The position numbers and the translations under genes were made by a program. This document shows, in pieces, positions 4,596-59,530 of a DNA stretch of 64,000 nt (positions within the stretch are counted from its first letter, which is position 1; each line of letters begins with the position of its first letter). Below the pieces are notes generated by a model. It had not been told where the DNA came from. It did not search any database and saw nothing but the letters and a program-made list of their open reading frames with translations. This stretch comes from a bacterium (GTDB taxonomy: Bacteria > Patescibacteriota > Saccharimonadia > Saccharimonadales > Saccharimonadaceae): the NCBI GenBank assembly GCA_027451105.1, contig DAIDKB010000044.1:1-64000 (forward strand). The letters run 5' to 3'.

Positions 4596-7500
4596 ATGCG
4601 GGTTAGGACTGGTACACGTTGGTATACCCATGCCGGCGCCAAATATGGTCGCCTATCGAAAACACGTCGTTTAATAGTTGTAGCGATTTTAGGCGCCTTG
4701 CTTATGTCTTTTCCTGTGGCGATAGGGCGTTCATCTCATGCGTCACCACCATGCCCATGCAATGTCTTTACATCTGCGCAACCTAGCACGACCCCGGGCT
4801 TATATGTCCAAACCGGTGGCATTGAGGTTGGTATGCGCTTCAAGGCCGACCAAAATGGCTATATTTCGGGTGCCCGTTTTTATAAGATAAGCGGCATGAC
4901 CGGTACACATACAGCTTCTATTTGGGATAGTATGGGAAATCGGCTTGCCCAAGCAACATTTACGAGTGAGTCGGCAACCGGTTGGCAGCAGATAAACTTT
5001 AGCCCCATAGCCGTCACGGCAAATTCACTTTATACGGTATCTGTTTTTATGGCTGACGGTAATTATGCGGCGACGTCGAATTTCTTTATGACTGATATCA
5101 ACAACTCGCCACTAATCGCGCCTAACGACGGCACGACCTATGATGGATTAGGTAATCGGGGCCAGGGTGACTACAACGACTCAGGTTCGAGCAGATATCC
5201 AACTCAAACATATAACGCGACCAACTATTGGGTTGATGTGTCGTACGTCGCTTCGCTAAGTAGCGCGGCTCCACAAATCAGCTCGCAAACACCTGTGCCC
5301 AATGCTACTAACGTATCAGTAGGTGACGTTGATATAACGGCGACTTTTGATAAGCCGATGGACGGCAATACTATTAATTCCAATACTTTCATGGTCAAGG
5401 ATGCAAGCGGCGTTCCTGTAGCTGGCACGGTCAGCTATAACAGCCAAACCTATACGGCAATGTTTAGGGCTAATACGGTTTGGCCGACCTCTTCAAAGTA
5501 CACAGCAACAATTAAAGGCGGCAATGGCTCACCGGTTGTGGCTGACATGCAGGGTATCCCGCTAGCGAATGATAGTGTTTGGTCGTTTACGACTGCCTCG
5601 ACGCCGCTGGCTTGTCCGTGTACTTTGTATAATGGTCAGAATCCAAGTGGATCATCAACGTATGAGGAAACGTACGCTAATGGAGTTGAGATTGGTACCA
5701 AGATTGTTGCCCAGGAAAATGGTTATATTACGGCATTGCGATTTTATAAGCCAATTGTGACGCCGGATACGTCACACGACGGTAATATTTGGGATGCCAA
5801 CGGTAATAATTTAGCCAATGTGACGTTTACGAATGAAAGTGATTACGGCTGGCAAGAGGCGACATTGTCAACGCCACTTTACGTTACCAGGGGGCAGGTT
5901 TATGTCATCTCATACGGCATGACAACAGGTGATTACCAGGCTTATGTGGGTGCCTTTACTGCACCACTTTCTTCACCGGGCATGATAGCCTATCCGTCCG
6001 GCGACAGCCGCAACACGACCGTGTCAACTGGTACGCTTAATAGCGTCTATTCGGCAACCAAAAATACATACCCAAGCTCAGCCGGTGCGACCAATAGCTA
6101 CTATTATATTGATGCTGTTTTTTCATTGAACGCATCCGACAAGATACCTCCAAGAATCATTGTTACTCAGCCTACCAGCAATAGTTACGGGATTGACCAT
6201 ACGAGCAGCGTTACTGCGGAGATTGATCAGCAGCTTGACGCCACGACCGTCAATGGTTCAACTGTCAAGGTTTATGATGGTGCAGGTAATTTGGTTTCAG
6301 GTACGGTATCATATGATGCTGGCAAGAAATGGATTGTATTTAAGCCGGCTGCGCCTTTTGCCTACAACTCAACCTATACCGCTCATATCGGAACTGGCAT
6401 TAAGGACCTGGACGGTGTCAGCCTTGCGGCTGGTGCTGATTGGTCATTTACGACTGGTAGTCCGGTGGTGTCTGATATGAATCAGGGTAATGGCGGTCCG
6501 ATTCTTGTACTGACGACTAGCGCTAGTGCCTACGGCAATTATTATGCCGAGATTTTAAGAACAGAGGGCTTTAATTATTTTGACGTTAAGGATATAAGTA
6601 CAATCTCGACGGCAGAGTTGGCGCAGTATCAAACAGTCTTACTAAGCTCAATGGCGCTGACTTCGGACAAGGTTAGTTTACTGACATCTTGGGTGAACGG
6701 TGGCGGTAACTTGGTGGCGATGCGCCCCGATAAACAACTGGCCGGACTACTGGGGCTGACAGATATCGGTCAATCAGTAACAAATCAGTACCTACGAACT
6801 AGCGTAGCGACGGCCGCCGGTATGGGTATTGTTGATACGCCGATTCAATTTAAGGGTACGGCCGACAAATATATGATCAATAATGCGACGATGGTAGCCA
6901 ATATTTACAGTGATAATGCCACGGCTACTGCTTTTCCGGCTGCTACGATGCGCTCGGTTGGCAGCGGTACGGCCATGGCATTTACTTATGATTTAGCGCA
7001 GTCGGTGATTGGTTTACATCAAGGTAATAAAGCCTGGGCAGCAATGGACCGCAACGGTGACGGCACGATTCGGTCAAACGACTTATTTTATGGCGCTATG
7101 ACGGGCGACGTTCAGCCCGATTGGCTAGATATAACTAAAATGGCGATTCCGCAGGCCGATGAGCAACAAAGGCTACTGGCAAATATGATTACCGAAGCTA
7201 TGAAGAAGAGCTTGCCAGCACCACGGTTTTGGTATTTGCCTAATAATCAAAAAGTCGCCTTGGTGATGGCGGGCGATGACCACAACTTGGCTAATAACTC
7301 GGGTACTGAAAAGGTCTTAAATAACTGGTTGAACGAGAGTTCAACTGGATGCTCGCTGGCTGATTGGCAATGTGTGCGGGCTAGTCATTATGTTTATCCA
7401 ACATCAGCACTGACTACCGCCAGAGCTAGTCAATATATCGGCTACGGTTTTGAAATCGGTGACCATCCGTCAGATGGTGGAGGCTGCGGCACCTACACGA

Positions 7501-8537
7501 CGCTGTCTGATTTAAATACGGCCATGGCTTATAATTTATCCAGCTGGAGGTCTGCTCATCCTGGTCTGCCACTACAAAAAACTCTAAGGTACCACTGCTA
7601 TATTTGGAACAACTGGGATATGCAACCGCTGGCTGATTTTGCAAACGGCATTCGGTATGACCTTGATACGGTTGCCTACCCATCGTCATGGATTGGTACT
7701 AATAGCCCAATGGTGACAGGGTCGGGTATGAATATGCGTCTAACTGATATAAATGGGGCTATGATCGATGTTCACCAAGGCGTAACTAACTTTGATAACA
7801 CAACGGCCGGAACGGCATCAATAACGGCAGCCTTTGATAACGCGCTTGGGCCAAATGGCTATTATGGTATTTTTGGTAGTCATTACGATATGAACGATAG
7901 TTATAACCAAACACTATTTTCAATCGCTAAGAGCCGCAACGTGCCAATTATTAGTTCGCAACAAGCATTGACTTGGCTAGACGGTCGGTCTAGCTCAAAC
8001 TTTGCTAATTTAAAGAGTTTAGGCATCGGCAGGGAGTCGTTTACGATTGACGTCGCCGAAGGGGCCATTGGTCTACAGGCGATGTTGTCATTAAATGACG
8101 CCGGCGGCGCAATTGCTAATATTAAGCTGAATGGCCAGGCGGTAACCTACCAGACAAATATAATAAAGGGTGAGCAATACGCTATTTTTGCCGCTCAACC
8201 GGGTGATTATGTAGTGACCTACAGCGACTATGCTGCACCGGTGACGACTACTGCTGCCGGCTCACCGTCGCAAGTAAAATCAGCTGACGCTAACTCAAAT
8301 ACGTCCGACTCGGTTGCTGCAACCGCTGGTAGTGCCGTCGCTGATGCGCCAAGTGATGGCCAGACCCCGTCAATTACTAGGCCGATAACTCCAGCAAAGA
8401 CATCACCAGTCAGCACGTCTGTAAAGCCGGGCTTGAGCCCGTTGGCAACAATCGCGATAGCTGCGGGCGCTGCAACGGTGGCCGGTGGCGGTGGAGCTGG
8501 CATTTGGGCTGCTATTAAGCGCTTTCGTCTTAAATAG
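4596..8537 (+). CDS. Giant secreted multi-domain protein (DUF4082, Ig-like, deacetylase-like)
   Basis: 1313 aa. N-terminal basic region then a signal/anchor helix at ~27-46. Two DUF4082-type beta domains (about 55-217 and 337-512; each has GVEIG or GIEVG-type start, ISGARFY/ITALRFY and W(D)..G strings) alternate with two Big_5/SbsA-like Ig domains (about 225-333 and 515-627; each ends WSFTT). Residues ~638-800 look like a Rossmann/ThuA-like domain (ILVLTTSASAYG...). Around 885-1140 MAGDDHN and EIGDHPSDGG resemble the Asp and His metal motifs of NodB polysaccharide deacetylases, but order and spacing are not canonical. A Ser/Thr/Pro-rich linker leads to a C-terminal helix (~1283-1305) and a basic tail: a second membrane anchor. 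It sits inside the glycan gene region, so sugar binding or modification at the cell surface is a reasonable inference. Confidence 0.8.
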   Translation: MRVRTGTRWYTHAGAKYGRLSKTRRLIVVAILGALLMSFPVAIGRSSHASPPCPCNVFTSAQPSTTPGLYVQTGGIEVGMRFKADQNGYISGARFYKISGMTGTHTASIWDSMGNRLAQATFTSESATGWQQINFSPIAVTANSLYTVSVFMADGNYAATSNFFMTDINNSPLIAPNDGTTYDGLGNRGQGDYNDSGSSRYPTQTYNATNYWVDVSYVASLSSAAPQISSQTPVPNATNVSVGDVDITATFDKPMDGNTINSNTFMVKDASGVPVAGTVSYNSQTYTAMFRANTVWPTSSKYTATIKGGNGSPVVADMQGIPLANDSVWSFTTASTPLACPCTLYNGQNPSGSSTYEETYANGVEIGTKIVAQENGYITALRFYKPIVTPDTSHDGNIWDANGNNLANVTFTNESDYGWQEATLSTPLYVTRGQVYVISYGMTTGDYQAYVGAFTAPLSSPGMIAYPSGDSRNTTVSTGTLNSVYSATKNTYPSSAGATNSYYYIDAVFSLNASDKIPPRIIVTQPTSNSYGIDHTSSVTAEIDQQLDATTVNGSTVKVYDGAGNLVSGTVSYDAGKKWIVFKPAAPFAYNSTYTAHIGTGIKDLDGVSLAAGADWSFTTGSPVVSDMNQGNGGPILVLTTSASAYGNYYAEILRTEGFNYFDVKDISTISTAELAQYQTVLLSSMALTSDKVSLLTSWVNGGGNLVAMRPDKQLAGLLGLTDIGQSVTNQYLRTSVATAAGMGIVDTPIQFKGTADKYMINNATMVANIYSDNATATAFPAATMRSVGSGTAMAFTYDLAQSVIGLHQGNKAWAAMDRNGDGTIRSNDLFYGAMTGDVQPDWLDITKMAIPQADEQQRLLANMITEAMKKSLPAPRFWYLPNNQKVALVMAGDDHNLANNSGTEKVLNNWLNESSTGCSLADWQCVRASHYVYPTSALTTARASQYIGYGFEIGDHPSDGGGCGTYTTLSDLNTAMAYNLSSWRSAHPGLPLQKTLRYHCYIWNNWDMQPLADFANGIRYDLDTVAYPSSWIGTNSPMVTGSGMNMRLTDINGAMIDVHQGVTNFDNTTAGTASITAAFDNALGPNGYYGIFGSHYDMNDSYNQTLFSIAKSRNVPIISSQQALTWLDGRSSSNFANLKSLGIGRESFTIDVAEGAIGLQAMLSLNDAGGAIANIKLNGQAVTYQTNIIKGEQYAIFAAQPGDYVVTYSDYAAPVTTTAAGSPSQVKSADANSNTSDSVAATAGSAVADAPSDGQTPSITRPITPAKTSPVSTSVKPGLSPLATIAIAAGAATVAGGGGAGIWAAIKRFRLK

Positions 8538-8569
8538 TCTGCAATCGTGGTAAGCGGCTATTTTTAGAT

Positions 8570-9694
8570 TTAAATCAGCTGATCGCCAATAATTTTACGC
8601 ATTTTAGTGACAAATAATGTCGTGTCAAATCGTCTGGCTTTGCGACGGAGCGTGGCGGGCATAAAAGTGGTTTGCTCGGCTCTTTTAATAGCCTGGACGA
8701 CATCTTCAATAGTTTGGTGGCTAAATAAAATACCGCTTTCGCCATCTTGAACGATATCTTTAGTACCGGCGCTGGCATAGCCAATCACTGGCGCGCCGGC
8801 GGCTAGGGCCTCGACGCTGACGATACCAAAGTCTTCATCGCTCGGAAAGATAAAGCCTTTGGCCTGATTCATAGCCTGCTCGACGGCCGCGTCGCTGGCA
8901 TCGCCAAACCGGTCAGTATAAAAGCTGATATTTTTGCTACCAGCGGCTAGTTGTAACAGCTGGCTATGCATCGGCCCATTGCCAAATACCTTTAACGGAA
9001 CGCCAAGCTGTTTGCAGGCGGCGACAGCCAGGTCGAAGCGTTTATTTGGTAGCTGACGGCCAAGTGTGACGTAGTAATCGGCGCGGCTGCGGGCTGGCTC
9101 GAATCGGTCAACGGCAACTGGTGGATAGACGACAGTCGATGGCTTGCCGTAATACTGCTTGATGCGGCGTTGTGTCTCGCTGCTGTTGGCGATGAAAACA
9201 TCAACATTTTGGGCGGCGGCGTAGTCTAATTTGCGTTGGCGTTTGACGAATGATGGGTAAATAAGCTTGATAATGGGATTTAAAACGCCAAAGCCGGGCT
9301 CCTTTTTATATAAGTCATAATGGCTCCAATAATAGCGGGCTGGCGTGTGGCAATAGCTGATAATCTTTTGTTCGGGACGAGTTTTTTGCACCTGATTGGC
9401 ATTTAAATAAGCGCTGGTAATGATAATGTCATAATCACTTAAATCCATCTTTTTAAAGGCATTAACTGCAAGTGTTGGAAATAAACGATGAGTTCTACGT
9501 AATAATTTAGGCAGTTTTTGTAGGTAAGACGGGCGAACATCGGCATCGTTAAAAGCTGGTACCTTAGTTGGGTTATACAGCGCGGTATAAATCGGGGCCT
9601 CGGGAAACATCTTGTGGAGTTCTAGTAGGACATTTTCGGCACCGCCCATGACTGTTAAAAATTCACAGACAATGGCAATCTTGGGACTCGGCAC
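8570..9694 (-). CDS. GT4-family glycosyltransferase (WbaZ-like)
   Basis: 374 aa, GTG start. GT-B fold retaining transferase acting on the cytoplasmic face of the membrane. N-terminal KIAIVCEFLTVMGGAENVLLEL is the acceptor-side Gly-Gly loop; ISYCHTPARYYWSHYD is typical of mannosyl/rhamnosyl transferases of this group; C-terminal YYVTLGRQLPNKRFDLAV and the E-x7-E element PSDEDFGIVSVEALAAGAPVI hold the nucleotide-sugar. The GTG overlaps the TAG stop of the upstream phosphosugar transferase by one base (TAGTG), so both are made from one mRNA and probably act in sequence on the same lipid-linked sugar. GDP-mannose from manC is a possible donor (inference). Confidence 0.9.
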   Translation of the reverse strand: MPSPKIAIVCEFLTVMGGAENVLLELHKMFPEAPIYTALYNPTKVPAFNDADVRPSYLQKLPKLLRRTHRLFPTLAVNAFKKMDLSDYDIIITSAYLNANQVQKTRPEQKIISYCHTPARYYWSHYDLYKKEPGFGVLNPIIKLIYPSFVKRQRKLDYAAAQNVDVFIANSSETQRRIKQYYGKPSTVVYPPVAVDRFEPARSRADYYVTLGRQLPNKRFDLAVAACKQLGVPLKVFGNGPMHSQLLQLAAGSKNISFYTDRFGDASDAAVEQAMNQAKGFIFPSDEDFGIVSVEALAAGAPVIGYASAGTKDIVQDGESGILFSHQTIEDVVQAIKRAEQTTFMPATLRRKARRFDTTLFVTKMRKIIGDQLI

Positions 9695-11130
9695 TATTTG
9701 GCTCCTCGGCGACGGCAGACGACGGCAATGGTTTTAAACAAGATTTTAATGTCTAGCCAAAATGACCAGTTTTGGGCATAAAACAACTCCAGTTCGATAC
9801 GCTCTTCAAATGATAATTCGCTGCGGCCTGAGACTTGCCATAGGCCGGTGACGCCAGATTTAACGCTGTGTAGCAGGGCGGTGCGACCAGAGGCCATCTT
9901 GACTTCCTGCGGCAAAATTGGTCGTGGTCCAACGAGACTTAATTGTCCCAAGAAGACATTAAAGAATTGCGGCAATTCATCCAGTGAAGTTGAGCGCAAA
10001 AAAGCGCCAAACCTGGTGATACGCGGGTCGTGATCGACTTTACGATTTTTCTCGTATTCCAGAGCCAAATCTTCGCGGCCCATAGCGCGGAACTCATCGG
10101 CAGCATCGCGACCGCCGTATTTGGCGTCCATGCTACGAAACTTAATCAGGCCGATTGGTTTGGAAAAACGGCTGAGGCGGCGGCTGACGTAAAAGGCTGG
10201 ACCTGGGTCAACAATTTTTTTAATTAGAAAAATTAGCAAATAAACTGGCGATAAAATGATAATTAATATGGTCGAGACAATTTGGTCAAAAATACGCTTG
10301 ACGATGGCTCCCCAGCCGACTAATGGCGTTTGATAAACTGTAATCATCGGATAGCCTAAGAAAATATCGATACTGTTTTTGCCAGAGTAAAACTCAGCTT
10401 CGCCCGGGATAAAACTATAGTCGATGTGGTTGGTTTGGGCGGCGCTTAAGATTCGTTGATTGCGCTCGGTTGAGTCGTATAGGTCGGTTTGGATAATGGC
10501 GTTAATCCTATTTTCTTGAATATCCTTTAAGGCGGTCTCAATTAGGGAGTAATGACGGGCGTCTAGGCCGGCTGGCATGATTTTCTTAGGCCCAGCGATG
10601 GCGACAATCTTGTAGCCACTTCTTTGTGTGTCGGCAAGGTTAAGAGCGATATCAATAGTAGTGTCTGATGTGCCGATAATCAAAACTCGCTTAATACCCA
10701 TGCCGTATCTAAACATTGTGCCGCGGATATAACGTAAGATTTCTCGCTCAACGGTGATTAGAAATAGTGAGCCAATGAATGCATACACGACAACTAGGCG
10801 GGCGGGTATGATGTTTTGGCCGCTGACGTATTGCCAGCCAATTACTAGCAAAATGCCGACAAAAGTACCAATGAGAATTTTACCCCATTCCAGCAACCGG
10901 TTTTGGTAAACACGGGGTTGATAAAGGCCAAGCGCGGCAAAAATCAATATCCAGAAAGGGATAATAACTAAGAACGAAAAGAGGTAGTCATAGGCATGAA
11001 CGTTGCTGAGTAGCGGCCTAGGGTCGTATTGGACGCGCAGGATGTAGGCGATTGTAAAGGCGGCTAGCAAGAAGAAGGTGTCGATAATAATTAAGATTAG
11101 ACTATAGAACTTAACGTTTTTAGTTGGCAT
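9694..11130 (-). CDS. Undecaprenyl-phosphate sugar phosphotransferase (WcaJ/WbaP type)
   Basis: About 478 aa from ATG 11130. Starts a lipid-linked glycan by moving a sugar-1-phosphate onto polyprenyl phosphate. Four to five N-terminal membrane helices (to ~residue 125), a central Rossmann/CoA-binding-like domain (VLIIGTSDTTIDIALNL ~150), a further helix at ~270-300, then the bacterial sugar transferase domain: KRIFDQIVS, KFRSMD, LDELPQFFNVFLGQLSLVGPRP, GVTGLWQVSGRSELSF. The frame also has ATG 11142, but that codon overlaps a TATAAT at 11141-11146, so ATG 11130 (MPTKNVKF) is preferred and the leader would be only a few bases. First gene of the minus-strand pair with the GT4 enzyme. Confidence 0.92.
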   Translation of the reverse strand: MPTKNVKFYSLILIIIDTFFLLAAFTIAYILRVQYDPRPLLSNVHAYDYLFSFLVIIPFWILIFAALGLYQPRVYQNRLLEWGKILIGTFVGILLVIGWQYVSGQNIIPARLVVVYAFIGSLFLITVEREILRYIRGTMFRYGMGIKRVLIIGTSDTTIDIALNLADTQRSGYKIVAIAGPKKIMPAGLDARHYSLIETALKDIQENRINAIIQTDLYDSTERNQRILSAAQTNHIDYSFIPGEAEFYSGKNSIDIFLGYPMITVYQTPLVGWGAIVKRIFDQIVSTILIIILSPVYLLIFLIKKIVDPGPAFYVSRRLSRFSKPIGLIKFRSMDAKYGGRDAADEFRAMGREDLALEYEKNRKVDHDPRITRFGAFLRSTSLDELPQFFNVFLGQLSLVGPRPILPQEVKMASGRTALLHSVKSGVTGLWQVSGRSELSFEERIELELFYAQNWSFWLDIKILFKTIAVVCRRRGAK

Positions 11131-54796: not shown

Positions 54797-55519
54797 TTAA
54801 GAGGCGCGGGTTGGTGGAGTGACACCAGCTTGCTTTAGTTGGGTATCAAGTGCATCTCGCAACTGATTGCCATTAGCAGTCTGTAGGTCCTCAATTATAC
54901 TGTTTGATAGCTTGACGCCATTCAGGAAGAATGACGGTGTAGAATCAACTCCAACCTTGTAGCCAATCGCTTGGTCGAATGATATTTTCTGGGCAACAGC
55001 ATCTGATGCCATATCAGTTTTAAACTTGGTCGTATCAAGTCCAAGCTGCGCCGCGTAGCTAGTAAATGTGGTTGTGCGTTGGTCAACCGATAGTGTATTC
55101 CAATCATTTTGCTTGCTATAGACTAAGTTGTGCATTTCCCAGTACTTATTCTGTAAGCCAGCCGCTTCAACGGCACTAGCGGCAGACAAGGCGTTTTGGT
55201 GAATGCTGGTCAGCGGGAAGTTGCGGAAGACGAAGGCGGAGTAGCTTTTGTAGTCGTTAATAACTTTTTCGACACCCGGCTCGGCGCTACCACAGCCTGG
55301 GCACTGAAAGTCACCATATTCAATTAAAACAACTTTGCTGTCGGCTTTACCGAAAACGTGATCGGCAATATTACCGTTTGATTTTGAGGCTGCCTGAATG
55401 CTATTTGCATCAATATTACTTGTGTCAACCTTGGTACTGTTACTGCGTGACCAGATTACTAATCCAGCCAATAGCCCGAAAATAGCTACTACGAAAATTA
55501 TCCATGCTTTCTTGCTCAC
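54797..55519 (-). CDS. DsbA-family thiol-disulfide oxidoreductase
   Basis: 240 aa, GTG start with AAGGAG SD. Signal/anchor helix ~5-23, then a thioredoxin fold with helical insert: VVLIEYGDFQCPGCGSAEPG has active-site Cys73-Pro-Gly-Cys76, and VDSTPSFFLNG the cis-Pro loop. FVFRNFPLTSIHQNALSAA is typical of DsbA/BdbD-like proteins. It would form disulfides in exported proteins; many of the window's surface proteins contain paired Cys. No VKOR or DsbB is seen nearby to reoxidise it. Confidence 0.92.
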   Translation of the reverse strand: MSKKAWIIFVVAIFGLLAGLVIWSRSNSTKVDTSNIDANSIQAASKSNGNIADHVFGKADSKVVLIEYGDFQCPGCGSAEPGVEKVINDYKSYSAFVFRNFPLTSIHQNALSAASAVEAAGLQNKYWEMHNLVYSKQNDWNTLSVDQRTTTFTSYAAQLGLDTTKFKTDMASDAVAQKISFDQAIGYKVGVDSTPSFFLNGVKLSNSIIEDLQTANGNQLRDALDTQLKQAGVTPPTRAS

Positions 55520-56686: not shown

Positions 56687-57190
56687 ATGTCACAACAGAA
56701 TAAAACGAAAATCATCGGTTTGATTGTCGTCGTGTTGCTATCAACGGCTGCGACGGCTGGTGTCGTATTGGTTAAAAATGGCCATACCGACGATTCATCA
56801 CTCTCAAATGTCAGCAGTAATACGGCGGCTAGCTCATCAATAACGGCATCAACGAATAATGGCACCACGCCGGCAGCTACTTCAACGGCTACTTATAAAG
56901 ACGGCACCTACTCCGCCCAGGGAAACTTTGACACACCAGATGGCACCGAGCAAATTGGCGTCACGGTTAAGCTTAGTGGCAACAATATCGCTTCGGTGTC
57001 AATCGATGACTCATCGATATACTCGGGTACGTCATTTGCATATACCGAGCGTTTCATTAATGGTCTTAACTCGGTTGTTGTTGGTAAAAATATTGACACT
57101 GTAAATATCGGTCGCATATCTGGAGCCTCTCTGACGCCAATCGGCTTCAATGCGGCTCTTGACACCATTAAGAACGAAGCCAAAGCCTAA
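56687..57190 (+). CDS. Exported FMN-binding (covalent flavin) protein
   Basis: 167 aa. Helix ~9-29, Ser/Thr/Asn-rich linker to ~68, then an FMN_bind domain (YKDGTYSAQGNFDTPDGTEQIGVTVKLSG in parts; ERFINGLNSVVVGKNID). The motif IGRISGASLT (141-150), S-G-A-(S/T)-x-T, is the site where ApbE links FMN to a Ser/Thr (here Ser148). The next gene, 3 nt on, is apbE. So this is a membrane-tethered flavoprotein on the outer face, comparable to RnfG/NqrC and to extracellular electron-transfer flavoproteins. Confidence 0.88.
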   Translation: MSQQNKTKIIGLIVVVLLSTAATAGVVLVKNGHTDDSSLSNVSSNTAASSSITASTNNGTTPAATSTATYKDGTYSAQGNFDTPDGTEQIGVTVKLSGNNIASVSIDDSSIYSGTSFAYTERFINGLNSVVVGKNIDTVNIGRISGASLTPIGFNAALDTIKNEAKA

Positions 57191-57193
57191 ATT

Positions 57194-58027
57194 ATGGAAT
57201 TTGAGGCAATCGGAACCCACTGGTGGATTCAGCCGGGTAAGGTAGAGTTAGATGCGCCGAAAATTAAGCAGGTAATTGAAGGCATTGATCAAACCTGGTC
57301 GCGCTTTCGGGATGATTCAATAGTTGCCAAGATGGCGATAAGCGCCGGTATCTATCCGCTACTACCATCGGATATTGAATTACTCAATTGGTATCGCCAG
57401 CTCTATCTAGCGACTGATGGTTTTGTGACACCCCTAATTGGCCAGACGTTGGCGGATGCCGGCTATGATAGCGACTATTCCTTGAAGCCAAAGGCGGAAA
57501 TTGCGATTACGCCAACCTGGGATGAGGTGTTATCGCTTGGCAAAACGTCACTAACTCTAAGACGGCCCGCCTTAATTGATGTCGGGGCAGCCGGCAAGGG
57601 TTATGCGGTTGATAAAGTTGCCGAACTTTTTAAGGGTGATTATTGTATTGATGCCGGTGGTGATATTAAAGTTGGTGATATCAAGATGGACATTGGACTG
57701 GAAGACCCGCGTGACCCGACCAAGTTAATCGGTGTAGCGACGGTCAAGAATACTTCAATTTGTGGATCGGCTATTAATCGGCGGGCCTGGAAGGGTTGGA
57801 ACCATGTCATTAATCCAAAATCATCAAAGCCAGTCGATGATATTATTGCCACTTGGGTGATTTGCGACAGTGCCATGCAAGCGGATGGCTTGGCGACGGC
57901 TTTATTTTTTGTTTCACCAGATAAGTTACGGCATTTGGCCGATTTTAAATACTGTATCATGTACAGCGACGGCAGCATTAAGGTCACAGATAATAGTATG
58001 ATTAAAATATTTACGGAGAATGAATAA
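57194..58027 (+). CDS. apbE: FAD:protein FMN transferase
   Basis: 277 aa. Attaches FMN to target proteins. IDQTWSRFRDDSIVAKM at the N-terminus, LIDVGAAGKGYAVDKVAELF and YCIDAGGDIKVG are the core FAD/Mg motifs; NRRAWKGWNHVINPKSSKP matches the H-(I/V)-(I/L)-(D/N)-P segment; DSAMQADGLATALFF is the C-terminal D-A-x-x-T region. No signal peptide, so the enzyme would act in the cytoplasm unless exported otherwise, which is odd if its target domain is outside. Sits between its two presumed substrates. Confidence 0.93.
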   Translation: MEFEAIGTHWWIQPGKVELDAPKIKQVIEGIDQTWSRFRDDSIVAKMAISAGIYPLLPSDIELLNWYRQLYLATDGFVTPLIGQTLADAGYDSDYSLKPKAEIAITPTWDEVLSLGKTSLTLRRPALIDVGAAGKGYAVDKVAELFKGDYCIDAGGDIKVGDIKMDIGLEDPRDPTKLIGVATVKNTSICGSAINRRAWKGWNHVINPKSSKPVDDIIATWVICDSAMQADGLATALFFVSPDKLRHLADFKYCIMYSDGSIKVTDNSMIKIFTENE

Positions 58028-59530
58028 ATGCGACGGGCAATTGAACAATTTATAGATAGTATTACGATGTATCGCGCGGTGTTGTACGGGCTTTACCTAA
58101 TGGTCGCAACGGCCATTGGTCTTAGTCTGTTCGGTCAGCTAAGCTTTACGCCAGGCGATTTAATTATCACGGCAGCGATTCTATTGGTAGCTTCGTATCT
58201 TATAAATCGATTATTTGCCTGGACCTTTTCAGTGCCATATAACCCCGAATCTTGGCAAATTACAGCCTTAATTATCTTCTTTTTGATATTTCCACAAAGT
58301 GATTTAAAAGGTTATTTAGATGTAGTGATTATTGCCGCTATTTCAATGGCCTCCAAATATATACTGGCGATTCGGGGCCGGCATATCTTTAACCCAGCGG
58401 CTGTCGCGGTTGCCATAGGCGGTCTATTGGGAGTGCTTGGTGCAACTTGGTGGATTGGTACATTGTATCTGTTGCCGGTGGTTATGATTGTCGGCTTCTT
58501 GTTGACCTGGAAGTTGCGCCATTTTTGGATGGTTGGTCTTTATATGTTTGCCAGCTTGGTGGTGGCAGCCATCTTGGCTCAGACAAGTGGACATAGCGTC
58601 GTGGAATCAATTAAGGGTGCAATTATATCGGGCCCGATGGTCTTTGCTGGCACGATTATGCTAACCGAGCCGTTGACCTCACCGACAACCAAGCGTGCCC
58701 AGATGTTTTTTGGCCTATTTGTAGGCGCCTTAACTGGTGGCCATTTAGGTTGGATATCAAAACCAGACGTGGCAATTTTAGTTGGCAACGTCTACGCCTT
58801 TATGCTTGGCGCGCGCCGATCGATTAGTCTTAAATATGCCGGGACCAGAGAGTTAGCGCCGACAGTACATGAGTTTTTGTTTAAGCCGACACATGCCTTA
58901 AAGTTTAAGCCTGGCCAATATATCGAGTTGACCTTACCGCATAGCGGTGCCGATGACCGCGGTACGCGTCGAGTTTTTTCGATTGCTTCGCGACCAGGCG
59001 CTGAATACTTGCGACTTGGTCTTGTTATGCCTGAAGTCGACCCTAGTACATTTAAACAAGTAATGGTTGGTCTTAAACCGGGCGCCGTGGTCCGTGCCAC
59101 TCAGGTTGGTGGTAGTTTTGTGCTGCCGCATAACCCCCGGAAACCACTTGTTTTTGTAGCCGGTGGTATTGGCATAACCCCTTTTCGAGCCATGCTCGAT
59201 GAACTTATCGAGAAAAACGAAAAACGACCGATTACCCTATTTTATGCAGTCCGCCGCCAAGAAGCCGCTGTTTATACTGATATTTTAAGTCAAGCCATCC
59301 GCACGATTGGTTTGCAAGTTGTTATCGTGGTGGCTGAACCACAAGCTGATTGGACTGGTGAGGCGGGTCGCTTGACGGTCGATACGATAGCTAAATACGT
59401 TCCTGACCTACCCGATAGTAGAGTTTACATATCTGGTCCAAATGCCATGGTCCAGGATTTTCGACGTGACCTAAGTAGCTATAATGTCAGTCCTATGGAT
59501 ATTGTGACCGACTACTTTACTGGCTATTAA
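58028..59530 (+). CDS. RnfD/NqrB-like membrane domain fused to ferredoxin-NADP reductase domain
   Basis: 500 aa; ATG touches the apbE stop. Residues 1-265 hold ~9 helices of the NQR2/RnfD/RnfE family: RHIFNPAAVAVAIGG (119-133) and LTEPLTSPTTKRAQMFFG (212-229), the latter equal to the T-D-P-(V/L)-T-x-x-T-T segment where Rnf/Nqr proteins carry covalent FMN (Thr220/221 here). Residues ~275-500 are a reductase of FNR type: RRVFSIASRPG (314-324, FAD), GGIGITPFRAML (~378-389, NAD(P)), and ISGPNAMVQDF near the end with Ser in place of the usual Cys-Gly-Pro. So electrons would go from NAD(P)H through FAD to membrane FMN and then to the exported FMN protein, in one polypeptide plus partner. Confidence 0.88.
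   Translation: MRRAIEQFIDSITMYRAVLYGLYLMVATAIGLSLFGQLSFTPGDLIITAAILLVASYLINRLFAWTFSVPYNPESWQITALIIFFLIFPQSDLKGYLDVVIIAAISMASKYILAIRGRHIFNPAAVAVAIGGLLGVLGATWWIGTLYLLPVVMIVGFLLTWKLRHFWMVGLYMFASLVVAAILAQTSGHSVVESIKGAIISGPMVFAGTIMLTEPLTSPTTKRAQMFFGLFVGALTGGHLGWISKPDVAILVGNVYAFMLGARRSISLKYAGTRELAPTVHEFLFKPTHALKFKPGQYIELTLPHSGADDRGTRRVFSIASRPGAEYLRLGLVMPEVDPSTFKQVMVGLKPGAVVRATQVGGSFVLPHNPRKPLVFVAGGIGITPFRAMLDELIEKNEKRPITLFYAVRRQEAAVYTDILSQAIRTIGLQVVIVVAEPQADWTGEAGRLTVDTIAKYVPDLPDSRVYISGPNAMVQDFRRDLSSYNVSPMDIVTDYFTGY

Follow-up and report, generated by a model that had tools for sequence, protein, structure and literature searches.

What do the three closely spaced genes at positions 56687-59530 of the window (the whole stretch of 64,000 nucleotides that was analysed) encode, and could their products carry electrons of NAD(P)H out of the cell, as a sequence-only reading of this DNA had proposed? 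In our view, it is quite probable that this triad is a putative NQR/RNF-like unidirectional electron exporter, of which we infer the path, the direction and the acceptor. The following features are encoded in the triad:

56687..57190, + strand: exported FMN_bind-type flavoprotein, 167 aa (gene 1; ORF, profile match to 8p2a, structural model, family alignment), predicted by model and alignment to consist of an N-terminal membrane anchor (about residues 8-30), a Ser/Thr-rich linker and an FMN_bind domain (residues 73-167)
57119..57139, + strand: predicted flavinylation site GRISGAS of the same protein ('RISGAS' residues 142/145-148, acceptor Ser148; alignments with homologues and RsxG, motif rule)
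57194..58027, + strand: signal-less ApbE (FAD:protein FMN transferase) of 277 aa (gene 2; PF02424, PDB ApbE matches, N-termini)
58028..59530, + strand: fusion of an NqrB/RnfD-like membrane domain (about residues 1-262) and an FAD/NAD(P) reductase domain (about residues 266-500), 500 aa (gene 3; PF03116, PF00175, 8ahx_D, model)
58664..58690, + strand: TEPLTSPTT, residues 213-221 of the fusion, a conserved NqrB/RnfD signature and not a flavinylation site (aligns with TDPVTSP of RnfD and TDPVTASTT of RsxD)

Organization and conservation of the gene triad

The three genes are all encoded on the + strand and, according to the ORF list, are separated by 3 nt (gene 1/apbE) and 0 nt (apbE/fusion), in agreement with the 0-3 nt spacing noted earlier. 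The same three-gene order was sought in other genomes and was found intact in 85 of 103 homologous loci; the remaining loci comprise some on truncated contigs and some two-gene versions lacking ApbE. As order and strand are kept in so many loci, the triad is not a chance arrangement. This order was encountered in Patescibacteria, Actinomycetota and Chloroflexota, and in one Mesorhizobium record.

Some loci depart from the common pattern. In genus g8, an FMN protein with the motif VAGASD and a fusion are encoded with no adjoining ApbE (L024, L027, L028). In another locus (L019, 169-648), the FMN protein reads SGDL at the usual flavinylation site and has no Ser/Thr acceptor there.

The exported flavoprotein

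The Pfam model PF04205 (FMN_bind) gave no match to the 167-aa protein, and since it missed even this protein, a family profile was used in its place. Indeed, (i) a profile built from 26 homologues of gene 1 matched the solved FMN-binding domain 8p2a (E=8.7e-11), and (ii) the AlphaFold model has a folded domain at residues 73-167, whose top fold match by Foldseek is again 8p2a, although this match is weak (E=8e-3). Single-sequence phmmer searches against the PDB returned no match for gene 1 or gene 3, whereas profile searches matched both.

The protein contains SGAS (in GRISGAS), as the sequence-only reading had pointed out, and RISGAS aligns with RVSGSS and VSGAT of homologues and with FTGAT of RsxG. 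The predicted acceptor is Ser148, and the site lies approximately 20 residues from the C terminus. The target motif of ApbE has been formulated as D-x-x-[S/T]-G-A-[S/T] (PMC12052999), and its leading Asp is missing here. According to the same review, replacement of this Asp by Ala has only a minor effect, and the acceptor residue is Thr or Ser, with a preference of the tested enzymes for Thr (PMC12052999).

An N-terminal hydrophobic segment is present in nearly all members of the gene 1 family, and most actinobacterial orthologues also have a lipobox cysteine (LAGC and similar). In the window protein, the maximum Kyte-Doolittle value of the N-terminal anchor is well above that of the ApbE. The exported subunit is thus predicted to be either a lipoprotein or a protein anchored by a transmembrane segment.

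ApbE and the place of flavinylation

Gene 2 was identified as an ApbE, as expected from the earlier reading, on the basis of a PF02424 match over the cut-off (E=2.2e-33) and of matches to ApbE structures in the PDB. The core of the enzyme is intact and conserved. Its invariant residues include D129, S192, H204 and D231, which we take, by motif, to correspond to catalytic residues.

No signal peptide precedes this core. Among 80 non-duplicate triads, the distance from the stop codon of the FMN protein gene to the first conserved ApbE strand has a median of 8 aa and is below 20 aa in 76; E. coli ApbE, used as a control, shows a clear lipoprotein signal in the same analysis. Gram-positive genomes with the triad encode further ApbE proteins in other operons, and these lack signals as well; the triad is therefore no special case, and ApbE without a signal peptide could be a general trait of these lineages.

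Since the ApbE carries no export signal and its target site is 20 residues away from the C terminus, the cytosol is the most likely place of FMN addition. The C-terminal part would be the last to leave the cytosol, and attachment shortly before export is therefore the natural reading. A more general model, to which we give about an even chance, is that the ApbE of this class would be cytosolic and would place FMN on the C-terminal Ser/Thr before or during Sec passage, with no FAD exporter needed, and that Patescibacteria lacking their own FAD synthesis would obtain FAD from a host or from neighbours. If this model is true, the signal-less ApbE would overturn the usual picture of surface flavoproteins being flavinylated outside.

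The mismatch between a signal-less ApbE and an exported substrate would also disappear if the topology were inverted, i.e. if the FMN domain were cytosolic, enzyme and substrate shared one compartment and nothing were exported. We find this hardly credible, in view of the lipoprotein signals on the actinobacterial orthologues and of the features of gene 1 itself, namely a positively charged N terminus before the anchor followed by a long Ser/Thr linker, as in surface proteins.

It could also be argued that the operon's ApbE is a remnant with no action on the exported protein, or that it is released in some other way, and that the flavin is bound non-covalently. The two-gene operons with no adjoining ApbE and the member without Ser/Thr at the usual acceptor position would fit this proposal, which we nevertheless judge highly improbable: the enzyme retains an intact, conserved core, and the acceptor varies with the ApbE type, being Ser in 44/44 readable triads of the long type and Thr in 27/33 triads of the short type, an association whose statistic is inflated and whose p-value is not independent because the sequences are related. 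Covalent attachment of FMN by the adjoining ApbE remains the preferred reading.

The membrane-reductase fusion

The 500-aa product of gene 3 had been described as an RnfD-like domain joined to a complete FAD/NAD(P) reductase, and both halves were recovered. Indeed, (i) PF03116 (NQR2_RnfD_RnfE) scores 30.6 bits against a cut-off of 27.7, and PF00175 (NAD_binding_1) is present as well, (ii) the membrane half matches the Azotobacter RnfD 8ahx_D in a profile search (E=1.3e-6), (iii) the C-terminal half has fold matches to NqrF and to NAD(P)H:flavin reductase structures, and (iv) the AlphaFold model is confident throughout (pLDDT 92.4, pTM 0.88).

The suggestion that TEPLTSPTT of the membrane domain bears a flavin did not hold. 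This stretch aligns with the RnfD signature LTDPVT(A/S) (E. coli RsxD, 8ahx). FMN at Thr220/Thr221 was likewise rejected, as these residues are unconserved and many members read PPRR. The flavinylated Thr of RsxD (in SQATP) is carried by a loop at about residues 140-207, and this loop is absent in 69/69 aligned fusions. The same loss of the NqrB/RnfD flavinylation Thr has been described for the NQR/RNF-like class (Huang 2024, PMC11334425). With this loop gone from all the aligned fusions, the sole covalent FMN is expected on the exported subunit, and the covalent FMN of the pair should, as far as these alignments indicate, be confined to it.

Relation to known electron transfer systems

NQR/RNF-like systems have been defined by the same set of parts and reported from 127 genomes, chiefly those of Actinobacteria and of the candidate phyla radiation; electrons are proposed to run through them in one direction, from NAD(P)H to an FMN protein outside the cytosol (Meheust 2021, PMC8238504). 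The parts found here correspond exactly to that definition, which makes the triad a member of the published class. A protein with N-terminal PF03116 and C-terminal PF00175 is clustered with ApbE and FMN_bind genes, gene 1 carries a hydrophobic anchor, in line with a class in which one or more target genes have an anchor or a signal peptide, and the membrane subunit lacks the NqrB/RnfD flavinylation Thr. The system is thus not new (Meheust 2021, PMC8238504; Huang 2024, PMC11334425), and no basic difference exists between it and the published FMN_bind protein, ApbE and NqrB/RnfD-PF00175 fusion. By word search, the texts of Meheust 2021 and Huang 2024 do not discuss a signal-less ApbE, Ser versus Thr acceptor types or a host without FAD synthetase; as far as these searches went, the ApbE without signal, the link between acceptor and ApbE type and the host without FAD synthetase go beyond the published description. 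A literature search returned no paper on flavin-based extracellular electron transfer in Saccharibacteria.

The triad shares an RnfD-like membrane domain and an RnfG-like FMN carrier with the RNF complex (RnfABCDGE), but it lacks RnfA/E, its RnfD flavin loop is deleted, an FNR domain is fused in place of RnfB/C, and it shows no sign of a return path or of ion pumping. It also shares NqrB-like, NqrC-like and NqrF FAD-domain-like parts with Na+-NQR, from which it differs in the lack of NqrD/E, of the NqrF ferredoxin domain and of covalent FMN in the NqrB part.

Genomic context and flavin supply

The genome carrying the window has a size of 920 kb and is rated 99.97% complete. The model for RnfA/E/NqrD/E (PF02508), which matches in four control genomes, gave no match in it, and a full Rnf/Nqr set elsewhere in the genome was rejected on this ground. 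Further FMN_bind matches were also discarded, as they cover only an anchor and linker, and no second FMN_bind protein was found with PF04205 and the family profile. The absence of RnfA/E/NqrD/E and of a second FMN_bind protein lends support to the proposed two-subunit NAD(P)H-to-outside flavin relay. The statement that it replaces a six-subunit Rnf/Nqr complex is fair insofar as the genome has no such complex. No haem-copper oxidase (COX1) was found in this genome either.

The Pfam models for FAD synthetase and riboflavin kinase had no match in the genome, and FAD synthetase scores over the cut-off in only 2/151 genomes of the same family. The cell therefore seems, from its gene content, unable to make its own FAD, although a FAD synthetase of an unrecognised family might be present. 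FAD is needed twice, as donor for ApbE and as cofactor of the reductase, so that the cell presumably imports it. The bacterium itself is probably host-dependent.

A second flavin module is encoded in the same genome (L114; contig C34, 7000-24000; genes 6932-8089, 8080-9045 and 9049-9771). In brief, it includes an FAD/NAD reductase whose C-terminal part has a membrane segment and a tail rich in Ala and Ser, another ApbE that lacks a signal peptide, and a membrane protein of several helices that shows a ferric-reductase-like His pattern but matches no Pfam model. An FMN_bind target is not evident.

Proposed electron path and acceptor

In the proposed path, NAD(P)H would reduce the FAD bound by the C-terminal, cytosolic domain of the fusion, and electrons would cross the membrane via the NqrB/RnfD-like domain, probably by a flavin that is bound non-covalently, since the fusion has lost the covalent site of RnfD. 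The electrons would then reach the FMN on Ser148 of the small, N-terminally anchored exported protein, which would hand them to a diffusible acceptor outside. ApbE would attach this FMN, most likely in the cytosol and no later than the last Sec step, and its source would be FAD that the cell must scavenge. The triad would most likely serve to re-oxidize NAD(P)H, as an NAD+-regenerating sink with a diffusible outside acceptor. If this model is true, small, host-dependent cells that have no respiratory chain maintain a minimal apparatus for shedding reducing power outside, and spend scavenged FAD on electron export.

The gene neighbourhoods bear on the acceptor. When 21 neighbourhoods were clustered, nothing besides the triad recurred beyond close relatives, and conservation of the triad alone argues for a diffusible acceptor. 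A role of the triad as a ferric reductase for iron uptake, for which the occurrence of a VIT1 iron transporter in six NQR/RNF-like clusters (Meheust 2021, PMC8238504) would be a precedent, is unlikely, as no iron transporter recurs beside it in these neighbourhoods. A role in extracytosolic repair or thiol reduction, in which the exported FMN protein would hand its electrons not to a diffusible acceptor but to a DsbA-like or methionine-sulfoxide partner, is suggested by a thioredoxin-fold gene (DsbA/Thioredoxin_4, 54797-55519) two genes upstream of the triad on the opposite strand, and by the retention of this gene close to the triad in L148 and L149, two relatives. This linkage does not extend beyond the closest relatives and looks like local synteny, and the triad has no recurrent redox partner at its side in 17 further neighbourhoods from the family; both points make this role distinctly unlikely. 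Export to a diffusible acceptor is the reading retained here.

Taxonomic distribution

The full-length fusion is encoded in 38/151 genomes of the family to which the bacterium belongs, with two more cut by contig ends, and in about 60 of 380 genomes of a phylum-wide draw. Among named genomes, it was found in many CPR lineages, in Actinomycetota (Arthrobacter, Microbacterium, Aeromicrobium, Nocardioides and Herbiconiux), in Chloroflexota (Dictyobacter, Ktedonospora and Anaerolineaceae) and in one Mesorhizobium record. Within the genus of the window, the fusion is present in 3/9 sampled genomes, and genome G132 carries a distant type; such patchy inheritance points to an accessory unit. All 23 actinobacterial sequences fall into a single clade of the tree, close to several members of the bacterium's family, and the sequence from the window groups with five members of this family.

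Furthermore, in three loci of other Patescibacteria (L199, 4420-7559; L202, 4611-6761; L203, 2255-4790), a free-standing NqrB/RnfD-like protein of 262-318 aa without reductase domain is encoded divergently to FMN_bind and ApbE genes. This arrangement is, by its predicted gene content, a variant of the exporter without an NAD(P)H domain of its own.
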